Source: Rhizophagus irregularis
Lineage: Eukaryota; Glomeromycota; Glomeromycetes; Glomerales; Glomeraceae
Direction of reading: 5' to 3'
Length of the DNA: 64,000 nucleotides
NCBI RefSeq assembly: GCF_026210795.1
Contig: NC_089437.1
Coordinates: 3,596,001 to 3,660,000 of the forward strand
Shown: in pieces, positions 13,744 to 56,599 of the stretch
How positions within the stretch are numbered: the first letter of the stretch is position 1
Layout: the number at the start of each line of letters is the position of its first letter
Notes under the pieces: model-generated
Told to the model about the DNA's origin: nothing
The model's database searches: none
What the model saw: the letters and a program-made list of their open reading frames with translations, nothing else
Made by a program: the position numbers and the translations under genes

Positions 13744-15514
13744 TTAATCAACAATTGCACAGTCTGAACAATTAGAGTTATAATATTTCGAAAGATTTTC
13801 TGTGTAAGGATTAAGTATTCGAGATGTATAAATAGCTTGCGGATGAATTATTAATTGTTTTCTTTTAAAAAGATTTGCTTTTCGATAATTTTCTACATGT
13901 TCAAAATCATCATTTTTCCAAGAATATATTTGATCACTTATTTCGGTTGCATCTGGTCTCTTATTTGGATTTGAATCCCAACATTTTTTCATTAATTCAA
14001 TATAACACTTTGGTGCCTCCAATTCATTTAATTTAGGTCTAATTCCTTCACATATATCTAATGCCAAAAATTCATCATGCACACGATTAGCAAAAGGTTG
14101 TCTTCCAGTAGCTACAAAATACATAATAATACCAAAACTATATATATCCGCTGCTTGAGTATAAAGTTTTCCTCTTAATACTTCAGGAGCTACATAAGGC
14201 ATAACTCCATAAATTTTTTCTTCGTCAATATTGTCAACTTCTCCACATAATCCCATATCTGAAATACGTGTATAATCGCAAATATCACTAGTGCTAGTAA
14301 AAAGGAATAATATGTTTCCTGTATGAAAATCGTGATGAACCTTCTCTTTTTGATGAATTTCTTTAAGACCATTAATAATATTATTTAATACTTTTATTTT
14401 ATTTGTCCAATCAAAATTTTCATAATTTTTATTGATCCATTTATTAAAATCACCGCCTTCCGCATATTGAAGAACCATAATATAGTTTTTAGTATCTGGA
14501 TTTTGAGATATTCCATATATTCTAAGAATATTAAGACTATCAATTGAGTATTCTTTAGCCTATTAAACAAAAAGAAATGTAATTATTAAATTATTTATAA
14601 TCTTTTTAAAAATCCATGATCTATAAAAGTGTTACCTCATTCAGAAATCCCTCAAATCCCTCATTGATATTTTGAGAACTATGTAAACATTTTAAAGCAA
14701 CTTTTTTATTTATTTCTCTTGTCCATTCCATTTTATTGTCATCAAAACATAACGGACCATCTTCCCATATTGCTGAATATACCGTAGCAAAACCACCTTT
14801 ACCTATTTTTTTAACTTTATTCAACTGACTGTATGGTATCCATTCAAATACTATATCATAATAAAAATTAATTTTTAATTGCATCTGTTGAATGAAATCA
14901 ATAATCTTTTTATTAATTGGCAAATTATAAGACCAATTCGTAAAAAAATTTTTCGTATATTTTTCATAAATTTCAATCATCTTATTAATATGAAAAACTA
15001 TAACATAATCATTCGTATCCGGATTTTGAGATATTCCATATACTTCAAGAATAATCTTATCTTTATCTGTTAAGTATGCTTTGACCTATTAAACATAAAA
15101 AAAAAATTCATATAATTAAAAAAAAACTTTTTTTTAGATCAAAAGTTTAAGTTTCATAACACATACCACGTTCAAAAATTCACTAATCATTAAGCACTTC
15201 AAAATAACTTTTTTATCTGATTTTCTTATCCACTCTTTACTATTATTGTCATAATATAATGGGCCATCCTTCCATGTTGCTGAATATACTGAAGAATAAC
15301 CACTTTTACCTATTTCTTTAATATCATCAAATTTATTGTATGGTATCCATTCAAATACTGTATCATTCCAAATATTAATTTTTAATTGCACGTTTTGAAT
15401 GAAATCATCGATTTTTTTATTACCACTAGTCCAAATTTTAAAATTTTTTTTTATATAATTTATTCGATAAGGCCTACGCCATTTATATATTATCATATTT
15501 ATATATTTTATCAT
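13744..15514 (-). CDS. TKL-type protein kinase with two fused N-lobes (3 exons)
   Basis: Exons 15514-15167, 15085-14636 and 14559-13744, joined by GTATGT/GTAACA donors and AG acceptors, give one open frame of 537 aa. Residues 54-116 are a first N-lobe: EWIPYN, a glycine loop IGKSGYSSVYSA and VILK (Lys106). Residues 117-146 look like the start of a second-exon kinase segment (YGISQNPDTNDY), then break directly into another N-lobe: EWIPY, IGKGGFATVYSA (about 210-220), VALK with Lys248. A complete C-lobe follows: VHHDFHTGN with Asp343, SDMG in place of DFG, VAPEVL, and CWDSNPNKRP. HRD is HHD here. Substrate and regulation are unknown; the family is expanded in AM fungi. The fused architecture could be a real two-N-lobe protein or a partly duplicated gene still transcribed from the last unit; an alternative start is Met152. 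Confidence 0.75.
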
Positions 15515-15849
15515 ACATATTTGAATATCACAATAAGTATTGGTTGAATGCGTTCTAACCTATTTATAAAAGAAAAGATTTTATTATTCGATATTTGAAT
15601 TAAATGTATCTGTTGTGCCTCAGCCTTTGGGTCACGTGCAATTATCAATATATTATTTAGAATAAAAAAAAAAAAATTTTTTTTTGTTATTTTCAAAAAC
15701 GAATACAAAGCATTACATAAAGCCCAAAACTGCTTATTAATATTATAAAAAAAAGCTAGGAATGATTTTCGTGATTAACTGTAGATCATCACGTGTCAAT
15801 ACATAAATCATCTATACCTATTGGTCCAGTTGAAATCCGAGGAAAAGGA

Positions 15850-27385: not shown

Positions 27386-28751
27386 GATTCCAGGTGATTA
27401 ATATTAATATCAATCTTGTTATAATTTTTTTTTTTTCGCGTTTTAACACGGTTTCATTCATTAATTTTAATAAGGACGGAAATTGAAAAAATAGTCAAGG
27501 GATGGTAAGATGGAATGTTAGGTATATATTATAGGACCTAGATGGTAGGGATGTTAACATCCTCTGCTGGCTGTACAGAAGGCCAGGCTAGCTATATATG
27601 ATAATATAATAAAGGTGTAAAGTATTTTCTAAAGGTATATATATTATGTATATATGTTAGTAACCATGCTAAAAGTGGCGATGCTGAAACCCTTGATCTA
27701 AAAATTTGCGATCATTAAAAAATATCTTCAGCATGATAACGTGCCGATGCGCAGCATCTAGTTGTAATCTTAAAACATTTTTCTTCAAAAAGAACTTGCA
27801 AAATTTTTTTACCGCACAAAGAAGCAAGCAATATAAATCCAACACTGTATTAAAAACTCTAATACTCTTTGTTTGATGTAAGTTGGAACGCAAAATCAAT
27901 ACCTTATTTTTACTAACAATGTCTTCAACTTCTCACAGAAAATGCTTCTTTACACTACGAAATTTTCTGGTTGTAAGTACAAAATCTTCGCCACATTCCC
28001 TTCAACAAAGACACAAACGTTCTTCTTATTGAAATTTTTTTTGTTTTTTTTAAAAAAAAAAGATTAGCCATTGTCTAATAACCATAAACCAACCGGTCGT
28101 CTGTTTTTTTTTAGAAAAAAAAGAAAAATGCTCTAGCTAAATAATTATAAAAGAGTTTAACTCGGATATGCTCAAGTCGAATCGAGTTACACTAGTGCGA
28201 GTCCAAGCTCTAATTTAGCTTTTAGATATAAAGTTCGATATTATATCTTTCGAAAGAAGAAACAGCAAGCTAATGAAAGATAGACTGAAATTGTTCATAT
28301 GAACAAAAGTTGTATTAGTAACATTGTTTAGAAAATGAAAAAGAAGTCGTAATGATTTTGAATCAATAATAATAAGTATTATAAGTTCGAATAAAAATAT
28401 CATCTTCTCCTTATATCACACGTAGCTTTACAATATTTATTATTTATAAACTATTCGATTAGATTATCCTGAATATTTAAATAAAAGTATTCAACCAAAA
28501 TAACCAAAATAAGTATAAGTAAATACAATAATTTATTTATTTAATTGCAAATTATAGCTTTGGACATGATTATAATACAAAATAAAAAAAATGGTAAATA
28601 TAAATACATTTTAAGAAGAAAAGAAAATTGATAGTTCTATAATGGTTAAAGATCAAAATTATTAATATTATTAATAAGAAGAGTATTCAATTTGTTTTTC
28701 TCTCTATGTAATAGAAATAAGTTTCTCATATTAAATAACTATCAAAAAATT
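27386..28751. other. Intergenic stretch
   Basis: The start (to about 27460) is the second copy of the intron found at 27039-27116, left over from the tandem duplication. The rest is AT-rich with no supported gene. A GC-richer patch at 27540-27590 contains a GGATGTTAACATCC palindrome. Confidence 0.55.
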
Positions 28752-29935
28752 TTAATAATATTTTTCTTTTTTGTCATCTTTGTGATCATTCTTTTTGTCA
28801 TCGTATCCGTATTCGTCATCGTACTTATCCTTTCCATCGTAGCTATCGGGGTAGTAATCGTAGCTGTCTTTCTCATCCTTGTAATCTTTTTCCTCGGCTA
28901 CTGCGCTACGTCTGTAATATTTTTCTTTTTTGTCATCTTTGTGATCCTTCTTTTTGTCATCATATCCGTATTCGTCATCGTACTTATCCTTTCCATCGTA
29001 GCTGTCGGGGTAGTAATCGTAGCTGTCTTTCTCATCCTTGTAATCTTTTTCCTCGGCTACTGCGCTACGTCTGTAATATTTTTCTTTTTTGTCATCTTTG
29101 TGATCCTTCTTTTTGTCATCATATCCGTATTCGTCATCGTACTTATCCTTTCCATCGTAGCTGTCGGGGTAGTAATCGTAGCTGTCTTTCTCATCCTTGT
29201 AATCTTTTTCCTCGGCTACTGCGCTACGTCTGTAATATTTTTCTTTTTTGTCATCTTTGTGGTTCTTTTTGTCATCGTATCCGTATTCGTCATCGTACTT
29301 ATCCTTTCCATCGTAGCTGTCGGGGTAGTAATCGTAGCTGTCTTTCTCATCCTTGTAATCTTTTTCCTCGGCTACTGCGCTACGTCTGTAATATTTTTCT
29401 TTTTTGTCATCTTTGTGATCCTTCTTTTTGTCATCATATCCGTATTCGTCGTCGTACTTATCCTTTCCATCGTAGCTGTCGGGGTAGTAATCGTAGCTGT
29501 CTTTCTCATCCTTGTAATCTTTTTCCTCGGCTACTGCGCTACGTCTGTAATATTTTTCTTTTTTGTCATCTTTGTGATCCTTCTTTTTGTCATCATATCC
29601 GTATTCGTCGTCGTACTTACCCTTTCCATCGTAGCTGTCGGGGTAGTAATCGTAGCTGTCTTTTTCATCCTTGTAATCTTTTTCCTCGGCTACTGCGCTA
29701 CGTCTGTAATATTTTTCTTTTTTGTCATCTTTGTGATCCTTCTTTTTGTCATCATATCCGTATTCGTCATCGTACTTATCCTTTCCATCGTAGCTGTCGG
29801 GGTAGTAATCGTAGCTGTCTTTCTCATCCTTGTAATCTTTTTCCTCGGCTACTGCGCTACGTCTGTAATATTTGTCTTTTTTGTCATCTTTGTGATCCTT
29901 CTTTTTGTCATCGTATCCGTATTCGTCATCGTACT
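28752..29935 (-). repeat. 159-bp coding tandem repeat array
   Basis: Seven full and one partial unit of 159 bp (one unit is 3 bp shorter, where KKKDH is KKNH). Units differ at only a few positions, for example ATC/GTC next to TCGTC, and several differences are shared by neighbouring units. This is the pattern expected from unequal crossing-over or gene conversion. The opposite strand is also open for 444 codons purely because Asp/Lys/Tyr codons read as Val/Ile/Phe in reverse. Confidence 0.9.
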
Positions 29936-30162
29936 TATCCTTCTTATCATCATCATAATAATATGTAGATGGTGCGTCACGTTTATTATTCAATTCAACC
30001 TCAGAAATAGGAGCAGCATTAACTAATAATTTTTTTGAAAAAAAAATTTAGTAAATTAATTTCATTTATTTACATAATAATTTCATATTCAAGTTTCTAT
30101 TATTCACCATTAAGAGCCGAAACTCCCAAAGCCGTTAAACAAACAAGAGTTGTGAACTTCAT
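28752..30162 (-). CDS. Secreted Kex2-processed repeat precursor (KEP-like), 2 exons
   Basis: Exon 1 (30162-30108) starts at ATG 30162 and encodes a signal peptide, MKFTTLVCLTALGVSALN. An 85-bp GT-AG intron follows; exon 2 (30022-28752) continues in frame with VNAAPISEVELNNKRDAP, giving 441 aa. After a KR site (32-33) come eight units beginning DKYDDEYGYDD (one GKYDD), spaced 53 residues (159 bp). Seven carry YYRR followed by SAVAEEKDYKDE; RR falls at 72, 125, 178, 231, 283, 336 and 389 (first Arg). The last unit ends in EKYY and a stop, without RR. The protein has no cysteine and is rich in Asp, Lys and Tyr. Known fungal precursors with dibasic sites in each repeat (alpha-factor, Ustilago Rep1, other KEPs) are cut by Kex2 in the Golgi; by analogy this would release several near-identical peptides of about 51 aa. 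Function unknown; signal or cell-surface peptides are both possible. Confidence 0.85.
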
Positions 30163-40197: not shown

Positions 40198-40704
40198 ATG
40201 TCACGTAGAATTAATGTCGAAGGATTAAACCTTATCAAAAAAATTTGAAGTATTTAAGGAAAATTTTTACGATGACCCAGTGGTAAGTTCGATTGTACAG
40301 TACGTCGGGTGTGACTGAAATAACATTGTTTATTACATTAGGGCATTACAACTATTGGATATGGTCATAACTGCAAAGCTAATAAAGACAGCGATAAAAT
40401 TAAAGCTCCTATCTCCATTAAAGAAGCTGAAGAATTACTTAGAAAGGATTTAGTCAAGTTTGAAGATTACGTTAATAAACAAGTTCCAGAACTTAATTCA
40501 AATCAATTCTCCGCCGTGGTTTCTTTCGCGTACAACCTTGGCTGTGACAAGCTTAGGACATCCATATTGCTTAAAAAGCTCAAAGCAGGTGATACTCAAG
40601 GTGCTTCAGAAGAGTTTGGCAGGTGGGTACATGCTAAAAGAAAAAGGTTGCCTGGCTTGGTAAGACGTCGCGAGGACGAGAGACAGTTATTTTTGAAAAA
40701 GTGA
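40198..40704 (+). CDS. T4-type lysozyme (GH24 muramidase), 2 exons
   Basis: Exon 1 (40198-40282) starts MSRRINVEGLNLIKK; a GTAAGT donor at 40283 and an AG at 40340-40341 remove a 59-bp intron; exon 2 (40342-40704) continues GITTIGYGH to a TGA. The expected length is about 148 aa, normal for phage T4/P22-type lysozymes. Around the splice the sequence carries a Glu in FEVF, an Asp nine residues later in YDDP and a Thr fifteen residues later in ITTIGYGH, the spacing of T4 Glu11-Asp20-Thr26. SFAYNLG and GRWVHAK are further family motifs. It would hydrolyse bacterial peptidoglycan. As written, the A7 run at 40239-40245 in exon 1 puts the Glu one base out of frame, so this is a pseudogene, a strain allele or a sequencing error. 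There is no signal peptide in exon 1. Likely acquired from bacteria or phage, then given an intron and TATA box. Confidence 0.8.
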
Positions 40705-48551: not shown

Positions 48552-51500
48552 TTAATTAAACATCTCTTCATTATAATAAGTTTTTAATGGCACGACAGGA
48601 GTAGCAGTGGGTCCCAAACACATCCTATTCTTAAAATCTGAAAGATCAGTAATTATAATATTATCTTCGGACAATATATAATTTTCTGGTTTCAATCTTT
48701 CTAATTTCGCATAAGTATTTTCATCATCTTCTTGATCTTTTTCTTTTGATTCATCATTATCTTTATTTTCCTTCTCTTCCGATTTGTCATTTTCTTTGGA
48801 ATCAGTTGTTGTTGCCTTATCAACAGAGTTATTATCGGTACACTTTAAAGATCTTACATGTATCGATGCCTTTCTAATCTTTGGTGATTTTGGATGAATA
48901 TTAATTTTATAAAACTCTAATACATCATCTTTAGTGATTGTTTTAATTTCTTCAGAATCATCAATATCTGCAAATAATAAATAATAACAGTTAATTGATA
49001 TTATAAAAAAAATAAATGAATTGGATTATCATTATTACTTACCTATATTAAAGTCGTAATAATCATTAGTAATATGATTAGCATATTTAGATGTTTCATG
49101 CCATATATTCTTTTCTTTTTCCAAAAGATTATCAATCAATGATTTCTTTTGTTTTTGATATTCTTCCTCTGACATTTCTTCAATAATTGACTATAAATAA
49201 TGTATATATAAGTTTTTTTTATAAAAATAAAAAAATCATTATTAATTTATTGCAACATTTTTTAAAAAATGTTTACCTGAGCTTTAATTAAAAATGCTTC
49301 AACTCTATTTTCCAAATAAACGGAATCTCTTTCACTTTGTAAATTGATTAATAATCCTATTTCTCCTACTGAACTACTTACATAACTAAATACAGAATAT
49401 CCTAAATGAACGAAAATTTTGTTATTTTTTTAGTTTAACTCATTGTTCATTAAAATAAAAATCTCGTAATTTTACTATTATTTACCTAATTGTTCTTTGG
49501 TTCTTAAATGATCAAAAGTAGCTTCTTCTATAACTTGAGCAATAATTTGTAACCTATTTCTAGCATATTTATCCTTATTATCTCCACATTGTAAATAATA
49601 TTCTATTGCACTATTCAATTCATCTTTATCATGAACATCTCTTTGGTAAACATATTTTTTACCTTTAGGTAATCTAACATTCCTACCTCTATGAATTCTG
49701 GATTTTTCTAATACTTTTGGTTTAAATATTTCTTCAACCATTTTTACCATTTTCATTGCTTCATCCTTTTCCATATTACCAAATACTTGAGCTTCGATAA
49801 ACATTTGTTTAAATAATTCAGGGTAAAATGATTGTACATCTTCTATATTAATATCTTCTAATGCTGATAATCTTTCTTCTGTTGTGTAATATGTTTCATT
49901 AAATAATTGTGAATCGTAAATTGATGCTAACGTATTTGGACTATATAATTTTCTATTATTATAATCTCTCTTTAATCTTTCCTTTAATACTTTAAATCTT
50001 TCAGGATTAATTACGAGATCTTTCATTCTCTTCATAATTAATTCTACTAATATTGAAGCTTTATCATTATATCCCGATACGTTAATGCGTAAACTGTCTT
50101 CTACTGTATATATTGAATAATACAATCCTGCAAGTGATGCATCATACGCTTCTTCTGCAAATGCATCATCAAATACATGGTAGTATAATGCGGTTTTAAC
50201 CAAATTGAACGGTGTAAGTCTAATCAACGGACTGTAAATGTGGTTATTTTTTTTTAGTAAAAAATATATTTAGATATATTGAAAAAATTTTTTATAACTT
50301 TCAATGATAATTATAAAATAGTAAAATATGTTTACGTACGTCTTAAATGCAAATTCAATTCTAACTTTAGGAATCCACCATTTATCATCTTTTTTATACC
50401 AAACGCGACTTATATCATTATCACTAATAATATCTGGACGCGTTTTTGGCTAAAGAAAAAAAAATCAAAATTTAATTCCTATTATTCCTATTAGAAAAAA
50501 AAGATAACTATTTTTTACTCACTGTTACGTTGTCTAACTTGTTAACAGTAAAATTGGTGGGTATGAATTCATTTGGAGGACAAAGTTTAAGATCAGGATG
50601 AATAACCGGATCTTCAAGTTTCTGATTATTTGTAAAAAAATTATTTAGGGATCATTCTAAAATGTATGTCGTTTTGTATATGTCGTTTTACTCACAAAGT
50701 TTACTTACTTTAATCAAGTTTTCATTGATAGGTTCATATTTATATTCGGCATTAAACCATTTCTCTTTTTTATCAAATCCACTCAACAATCTACTTGCGA
50801 GGGTAACAACACAATTTTCGATTCTTAAACAGTCAAGCATTTCGGTAATTAATTTTGGTTCGTATTCACAACTAATATATGGAGCACTTAATATTTCATT
50901 GTGTGGATATGTTTGATGTAATCTGTTTGAGAGCATGCACACATATGAAGATTCCCATGATTTTTCCAAAAATCGCCATGTTATTTGATTTAATGATGAA
51001 ATCTTTTTTCGTTTAAAAAAAAAGGAAAAGAATAAGTAAATATTTCTTTTAGTATTAAATTTTTTAAAAAAAATGGTTTCGTTAAAAATTTCTTACTTCA
51101 TTAAATATCCATTCTTGTGGTCCTTCTCTTCTGAGCATTTCAATATACTGAAATATAATTTCCAAAACATCTTCGTAATGTTCTTTAAAATAATAAAAAG
51201 ATGAAAATTAACGTTTATGTCGTGATTTAATAGTAAATATTTGACAATAAAATACCTAGACCATCTTCAGTTAAATAAACATTCATTGTCATCATATGAA
51301 AATCAACACTAATTTCTTCCGGTCCGGCATAAATGGAAGTAATCCATCCTACAAAGTTTAAAAGAAAATACGTTAAAAATGTTCGATTTAATTGAAAATG
51401 TGAAAATTCACCGCGTGGCGATCATCACCGCACCAGCATTAGCAAATATTAACGGGCGGAGTTTCATGGCATCAATTCTGCCTAAAATTCTATCCTAATT

Positions 51501-55067: not shown

Positions 55068-56599
55068 ATGCGAAATATTCAAATTATGCGATGTGAATTA
55101 ATTACTGCCGCAATTAATAAAGCATCAGCATTAACAGATTTTGATATTCATGATGATATACATAAAATATTCGAATTTAGAAAAAAAATCATTCTCGCTG
55201 ATGAATATCTTACAAAAATTGAGATTTTAGAAGCAATAAAATTATTAAATAAAAGTTATGATCATGATAAAGTTCTTAATAGTGAAGGTATTAGAAGAAT
55301 TTGTGAAAATTGTAAAGAAAAATGTCTAGCCACATTATATTGTGAACTTTGTATTCGAAATTATTTAAAAACAAAATTTTCAAATTGGAAATCTGGAAAT
55401 GATAATATTGATAATTTAATAAGAAAATGTCAAATGGAAACATTTAGACCTGATAAAATTGTAGAATGGATCCCATACAATAATTTACGGAATATTAAAT
55501 ATTTAACTAAAGGCGGTTGCTCTGAAATTTATACAGCGGATTGGATTAATGGAGGTTATGATGAGTGGAATTCTAAAGAAAAACAATTAGAAAGAAAGGG
55601 AAGACACAAGGTAATACTCAAAAGATTGGAAAGTATTGAAAGCGCTAATAGGAGCTGGTTTGAAGAGGTATGTAATTATGTATACATATACAAGTACAAT
55701 ATCTAATTATTTATAATGCTAAATAAAAATTATTCCCTTTATAGGCCAAATCTCATTTAGCTGTAAGTAATAAATGGAATGAAATAGTAGGATGTTTTGG
55801 TCTAACACAAGATCCATTTAATAAAAGTTATATGCTCGTAGTATATTTAATGGATATGGATTTAAGAAAATATTTACGACTAAATCATAGTAAATTAACG
55901 TGGAAAGGAAGATTTGAAATTATTAATAATATAGTCAATGCACTTCATGTTATTCATAGTGAGAATGCAATTCATAGAGATTTACATTCCGGAAATATAT
56001 TATGTTATCAACATATTAATTTTTGGACTATCAGTGATTTTGGGTTTTGTGGACCTGTTGATAAACCATTAAATAGTATATATGGAAATCTTCCTTATAT
56101 AGCTCCCGAAGTTATTGTAAAAATGAAGTATTCTTTTGCGTCTGATATCTATAGTATTGGTATGCTCATGTGGGAAATTTCATCTGGACAACCACCTTAT
56201 GCTAATATTGATCATGATTATTATCTTGCAATGAATATAGTACATGGGATGAGGCCAAAACCAGTTCTAGGAATTCCCTTAGAATACAAAATATTAATGG
56301 AACGATGTTGGGATGCTGACCCAGCAAAAAGGCCTGATATTAATAATTTTAGTCATGAAATTCACCAAATATTAAAATCGTATAATCAAAATGAAAATAA
56401 TGAATACAGCACAAATATTTATAATTCACAATTAAATCTTAGTATAAGTCCTAGTTCCGGTTCTATTAATTCTTCGATCAGGACCTACCTTAGTAAAACA
56501 CATAGTTTTAAATATTTACCTGAACCAAGAAATGCTACTAAAGGTGAATTATTTATTGCATGTTCAAATAATATTTTTGAAGTTTCTATCTTTAATTAA
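55068..56599 (+). CDS. TKL-type protein kinase, 2 exons
   Basis: Exons 55068-55667 and 55745-56599 (GTATGT donor, TATAG acceptor) give an unbroken 484-aa protein. Residues 79-95 carry five cysteines (C79, C82, C86, C92, C95) that may bind zinc. EWIPYNNL precedes the kinase fold, as in the other kinases here. The glycine loop is weak (LTKGGCSEIYTADW); Lys185 in VILK is the ATP-contact lysine. IHRDLHSGN supplies Asp279 and Asn284, SDFG gives Asp298, and IYGNLPYIAPEV is the activation-segment end, followed by DIYSIGMLMWE and RCWDADPAKRP. A Ser/Asn-rich tail follows the kinase domain. It should be an active Ser/Thr or dual-specificity kinase; substrate unknown. Related to the decayed and fused kinases at 12.1-16.1 kb. 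Confidence 0.93.

Follow-up and report, generated by a model that had tools for sequence, protein, structure and literature searches.

The 64,000-nucleotide stretch of the arbuscular mycorrhizal (AM) fungus Rhizophagus irregularis analysed here (contig NC_089437.1, positions 3,596,001 to 3,660,000; hereafter the window) carries on its minus strand, at 30162–28752, a two-exon gene whose start and stop codons fill these coordinates exactly and whose translation is a predicted precursor of 441 aa. A preliminary description made from the letters of this locus had taken it for a secreted Kex2-processed repeat precursor (KEP), and both the anatomy of the sequence and eight paralogues sharing its exon, intron position and leader bear this out. 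The proposed signal peptide is upheld by a hydrophobic core in exon 1, where hydropathy over 12 residues peaks at 2.32, whereas the remainder of the precursor does not exceed −1.31. No Met occurs in the 431-aa frame of exon 2, so the ATG start must come from an upstream exon. Exon 1 differs from its counterpart in the paralogue on contig C18 at one of 55 bases (identity 0.982). The sole Cys of the whole precursor lies inside the signal peptide, in agreement with the earlier statement that the units lack cysteine. A Pfam scan of ten of the window's open reading frames (ORFs) gave no domain match for the precursor, and protein disorder is assumed from its composition.

At the DNA level the repeat array comprises 7.5 copies of 159 bp with 97% matches (Tandem Repeats Finder), and it encodes eight units (Table 1). 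Their spacing, described earlier as fixed at 53 residues, is nearly but not fully so; of the eight units called near-identical, seven are, whereas the first is short and different. The translation contains one KR (residues 32–33) and seven RR, exactly as had been counted before. All 15 arginines of the precursor lie in [KR]R pairs; when the residues behind the signal peptide were shuffled 5,000 times, the mean was 4.2 and the maximum 11. Directly after each RR stands SAVA (X-Ala-X-Ala), which reads as the signature trimmed from alpha-factor by Ste13-type dipeptidyl aminopeptidases. This spacer and the eight paralogues are the points that the preliminary description lacked.

The Kex2 and Kex1 steps alone are predicted to give one peptide of 38 aa and seven of 50–51 aa, matching the earlier proposal of a 38-residue peptide and seven of about 51 residues. 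Once SAVA is taken off as well, the prediction becomes seven peptides of 46–47 aa, EEKDY...KEKYY, and one untrimmed 38-mer. Proline after X-Ala blocks dipeptide trimming; this rule, coded into the peptide prediction, is the ground on which DAP at the first cut was treated as untrimmable. The C terminus of unit 8, KEKYY, matches what removal of RR would leave at the end of the other full units. The last copy in the yeast alpha-factor precursor has no basic pair.

In the R. irregularis DAOM197198 genome a published RiTEF primer (PMC9741363) has a single exact match; with its partner the genomic product would be 177 bp, against the 127 given for the assay, a difference that an intron may account for. 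Querying this genome with the unit returned the paralogue on C18, where the gene and its flanks lie in a duplicated block (Table 1). The leader as query returned seven more long frames and a short broken one, and queries built from the other two subfamilies found no additional member in this genome. The nine intact genes (spliced models of 340–503 residues), including the precursor under study on C9, form three subfamilies: A, with C9 and C18; B, with C28, C26a and C2; and C, with C16, C17, C7 and C26b. Nine is a lower bound, since the genome search scores the best candidates only. All share a signal exon with a hydrophobic core (9/9, on hydropathy only), a phase-1 intron of 67–100 bp in one common position, a leader of the form V[NT]AAP, and KR-D as the first site. 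A tenth locus, on C20 (L038 2464–3171), has the same leader with different, decayed units across two frames; it was treated as a frame-broken relative and left out of all nine-gene counts. A weak match on C21 (E 0.03) appears not to be a relative: its frames look kinase-like by eye, with neither leader nor units. A protein search of 5.8 billion sequences returned nothing at E 0.001 among the 7,994 candidates scored, those with the most words in common, and it also missed the copies of the species itself, so it is uninformative on absence elsewhere.

The restriction of particular residues to cut sites extends across the family. Despite 747 lysines in the nine genes, 120 of the 121 arginines lie in [KR]R, of which there are 8 sites in the gene under study and 70 in all. 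Setting aside the nine first cuts, every later cut (61/61) is followed by X-[AP]-X-[AP], and all 117 alanines past the first cut sit within 5 residues of a cut. The residues after the first cuts (DAPST in two genes, DESPS in four, DSTPS in two, DTTPS in one) offer no trimmable dipeptide under the rule used. In C26a and C2, SASP replaces SALASP in 7 of the 18 later units, a gain or loss of a whole dipeptide, and the cores are 40 residues long in 14 of the 18. The third dipeptide is altered in two later units (C2 SALASR, C7 DALASL), with the first two dipeptides intact. These patterns bear on whether the product might be an uncleaved repetitive wall or surface protein in which the RR pairs are incidental. 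Its low-complexity composition would suit such a protein, but the confinement of Arg and Ala to cut sites and spacers, bar that single Arg, and the variation of spacers by entire dipeptides make this improbable.

Tyr is the final residue of all nine proteins, and the last unit is never followed by [KR]R; in three (C9, C26a, C2) the end of the last unit equals the trimmed end of the inner units. Over the nine genes the prediction comes to 70 peptides with 47 distinct sequences. Their lengths run from 31 to 65 residues, and both length and internal sub-repeat number vary, even within one precursor.

The genome also encodes enzymes of the kind that such processing would call for. For the catalytic exon of a kexin gene on C32, the best match in the Protein Data Bank is yeast kexin (E 1.1e-48; furin, 4.2e-36), and the gene also has P-domain exons. 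There is a DPP4-like peptidase on C5, which is the Ste13 candidate, and a DPP8/9-like peptidase on C12. Candidates for Kex1 are S10 carboxypeptidase matches on C19, C2 and C15.

We then considered how the units vary. By the Nei–Gojobori method, the ratio of nonsynonymous to synonymous divergence (dN/dS) of the units is 0.04–0.18 within genes and 0.07–0.18 between paralogues of the same subfamily; for the leader plus first unit it is 0.11–0.25 in 8 of 10 pairs. Across the 61 units, 30, 16 and 84 variable sites fall at the first, second and third codon position, respectively (nominal p 3e-13). Judged from these substitution patterns, the units of this nine-gene family appear to be under purifying selection. 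Unit dS is 0.11 within C9, 0.15 within C18 and 0.26 between them, the lower values within genes being as expected from array homogenisation. C2 breaks this pattern, its within-gene dS of 0.44 exceeding the between-gene values of 0.31 and 0.37.

The same variation tells against the view that there is no gene here at all, the locus being a minisatellite or a plus-strand hydrophobic frame of 458 aa being the real product. Long open frames do exist on both strands, here and in the C18 paralogue. However, 84 of the 130 variable sites are third codon positions when read in the minus-strand frame, and nine diverged loci retain 340–503 open codons with one splice structure, so that this view is barely credible. 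The antisense frame itself (28650–30026, plus strand) was rejected on codon-position variation, and we read it as a consequence of the Asp/Lys/Tyr codon make-up.

Several observations weigh against a processed and selectively maintained precursor. KK pairs are common within units, with 23 overlapping pairs in the precursor under study, and if Kex2 cut these too the peptides would be shredded. In six of the nine genes the tail of the last unit differs from the trimmed end of the inner units. For the leader plus first unit, 2 of the 10 pairs give a ratio of 0.66, each from one synonymous and three nonsynonymous changes. Gene conversion makes the units non-independent. Neutral simulations of one C9 unit, in which 12 mutations were introduced and each transition bias was run 400 times, gave uncorrected ratios with medians of 0.46–0.91 and 5th percentiles of 0.17–0.31. 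One unit pair is thus insufficient to prove selection. The comparable uncorrected C9–C18 value is 0.21, and the argument for selection therefore depends on the subfamilies agreeing with one another.

Taking these points into account, we consider it probable, from the anatomy of the precursor and the presence of the enzymes, that the gene encodes a multi-copy secreted peptide precursor working like the yeast alpha-factor precursor. The signal peptide would bring it into the secretory pathway, Kex2 would cut behind the KR and behind each RR, and a Kex1-type carboxypeptidase would strip the basic pair. Next, SA and VA would be taken off by a dipeptidyl aminopeptidase of the Ste13 type, and the cell would export one 38-residue and seven 46–47-residue peptides, rich in Asp, Lys and Tyr and free of cysteine. 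The eight paralogues would supply the same stream, 70 predicted peptides altogether.

The gene has the sequence features that characterise a KEP: a predicted signal peptide (by hydropathy), near-identical repeats, and [KR]R between the repeats. It also has the alpha-pheromone-type STE13 signature (XA/XP), present at all 61 later cuts of the nine genes. In the passages of Le Marquer et al. 2019 cited here (PMC6339444), R. irregularis KEPs are reported as numerous, STE13 signatures and Tyr-rich peptides marking most of them, and X-Ala/X-Pro dipeptides behind the Kex2 cut are given as the STE13 signature of alpha-pheromone precursors. Like those STE13-signed KEPs, the gene belongs to R. irregularis and encodes a signal peptide and near-identical repeats with Kex2 sites, X-A/X-P dipeptides behind the cut and Tyr-rich peptides, and comparison with the published description in these passages revealed no distinguishing feature (PMC6339444). 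It is a well-supported new example of this known type, possibly one already in the table of Le Marquer et al., and it leaves the known catalogue of mechanisms unchanged. The label "new-looking" in the preliminary description is not supported, R. irregularis KEPs of this description having been reported in the same passages (PMC6339444).

Other known precursors resemble it in part. Ascomycete alpha-factor (MFalpha-type) precursors, compared by layout, have the Kex2, Kex1 and Ste13-type arrangement in common, but the cores here are 31–65 aa long and rich in Asp, Lys and Tyr, not short pheromones. Ustilago maydis Rep1 is also a secreted Kex2-cut repeat precursor, and a role in bulk at the surface is among the hypotheses for the present family; as described in the cited part of PMC6339444, however, Rep1 lacks the STE13 signature, unlike the precursor here with its SAVA spacer. 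Of the two precursors named in the preliminary description, the layout is thus like that of alpha-factor rather than that of Rep1. Row P-4 of Umemura et al. 2020 (PMC7329392) lists a KEP type with Rhizophagus and Diversispora members; the likeness, on that table row only, lies in the Rhizophagus members. Dikaritin precursors of the ustiloxin type share Kex2-cut repeats and Tyr in the peptides. The UstYa oxidase (DUF3328) that would stand beside a dikaritin precursor gene had no match in the genome search, where the control was likewise silent so that absence is not claimable, and none in the 10 ORFs scanned among the window's 26 of at least 120 aa. Six sequence strings of the family occur in no paper text of a PMC full-text search (which covers main texts and leaves supplements outside), and the AM-fungal literature on Kex2-processed repeats or pheromones, searched mostly at title level, gave no title about this family.

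What the peptides would do is a separate question, and AM fungi, which live with most land plants, are a group in which few secreted signals are understood. They may be a self-signalling hormone or pheromone, the trimmed peptides binding a fungal receptor, although we find this rather unlikely. Purifying selection on the units agrees with it, as does a STE3-like receptor frame of 619 aa on C13 (L072, C13:4767083–4768006, minus strand). Pheromones are short and strict in length, and cores of 31–65 residues with variable internal repeats are unlike them. STE2 was also unmatched in the genome search; no control genome gave a match either, so its absence is not claimable. In the cited passages, Le Marquer et al. 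speculate likewise about STE13-signed KEPs and describe for alpha-pheromone precursors a layout equal to that found here (PMC6339444).

Effector peptides directed at the plant and active in the root apoplast are an equally doubtful possibility. The part of Kamel et al. 2017 drawn on here (PMC5293756) reports repeat proteins of R. irregularis that are secreted and carry Kex2 sites, including relatives of SP7, with one group mostly expressed in planta. The likeness to these SP7-like effectors, by that description, consists of secreted repeats with [KR]R sites (PMC5293756); SP7 itself localises to the plant nucleus, according to the passage cited (PMC11333574). In mushrooms, mass spectrometry has detected peptides derived from KEPs, some of them probably trimmed in STE13 fashion, and Coprinopsis cinerea kep knockouts had no axenic phenotype, from which the authors, in the passages used, point to a role towards the biotic environment (PMC9769878). 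Against plant-directed action stands a precursor that has no Pfam domain.

That the peptides act in bulk, coating the hyphal surface or binding ions there or in the extracellular matrix, for example, seems to us likelier than that they serve as a single receptor ligand, and we put it forward tentatively. It is favoured because peptide length and sub-repeat number vary, whereas composition and trimming sites stay the same. A more elaborate version is distinctly speculative: the nine precursors would release some 70 trimmed peptides, rich in Asp, Lys and Tyr, that coat hyphae or spores as an adhesive or ion-binding matrix, perhaps cross-linked through their Tyr residues by tyrosinases of the fungus itself, with alpha-pheromone-style processing turned to bulk production. 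Tyrosinase has six matches in the genome. Four are tandem open frames of 596–623 aa (C15:3883445–3900266), possible partners of Tyr-rich secreted peptides. A nine-gene family whose predicted mature peptides are defined at both ends supplies candidates that can be synthesized, and with them the STE13-signed KEPs of an early-diverging fungus may be examined as hormones, effectors or surface material.

Table 1. Parts of the repeat precursor gene and the duplicated block that contains it (window positions).
Feature	Position	Strand	Description	Basis
Exon 1	30108..30162	−	55 bp; start codon and signal-peptide core MKFTTLVCLTALGVSALN	Translation, hydropathy
Intron	30023..30107	−	85 bp, phase 1, GT-AG, GTGAATAA...ATTATTAG	Predicted from sequence
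Exon 2	28752..30022	−	1,271 bp; leader and repeats	
Exon 2 leader up to first Kex2 site	29979..30022	−	VNAAPISEVELNNKR	Aligned across ten loci, including broken C20
Unit 1	29859..29978	−	40 aa, DAPSTYYYDDD... to YYRR; predicted 38-aa peptide, taken as untrimmed	
Unit 2	29700..29858	−	53 aa; SAVA spacer, RR at end	
Unit 3	29541..29699	−	53 aa; single Asp-to-Gly difference	
Unit 4	29382..29540	−	53 aa	
Unit 5	29226..29381	−	52 aa; shorter by one residue	
Unit 6	29067..29225	−	53 aa	
Unit 7	28908..29066	−	53 aa	
Unit 8	28752..28907	−	51 aa, then stop codon; C terminus KEKYY, no RR	
Block duplicated on C18 (L009 3788-6522)	28222..30854		Gene and flanks	Three blastn pieces: 86.5%, 89.6%, 91.0% identity

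Elsewhere in the window, in which neither a tRNA nor an Rfam match reaching the gathering score was found, protein kinase genes lie at 13744–15559 (minus strand) and 55068–56599 (plus strand); Pfam kinase matches fall in the frames 13744–14559 and 55745–56599, and the frames adjoining both are kinase-like by eye. An M16 metallopeptidase exon (PF16187, PF05193), which we take to be insulysin/Ste23-like by family, is found at 49478–50269 on the minus strand, and the frames 48552–49025 (no Pfam match) and 50688–51092 may, by eye, belong to the same gene. Its position about 19 kb from the peptide precursor gene is probably a coincidence. An open frame at 40342–40704 on the plus strand has a strong Phage_lysozyme match (PF00959, E 6.6e-35), and for such a domain in a fungal genome horizontal acquisition is a possible origin.
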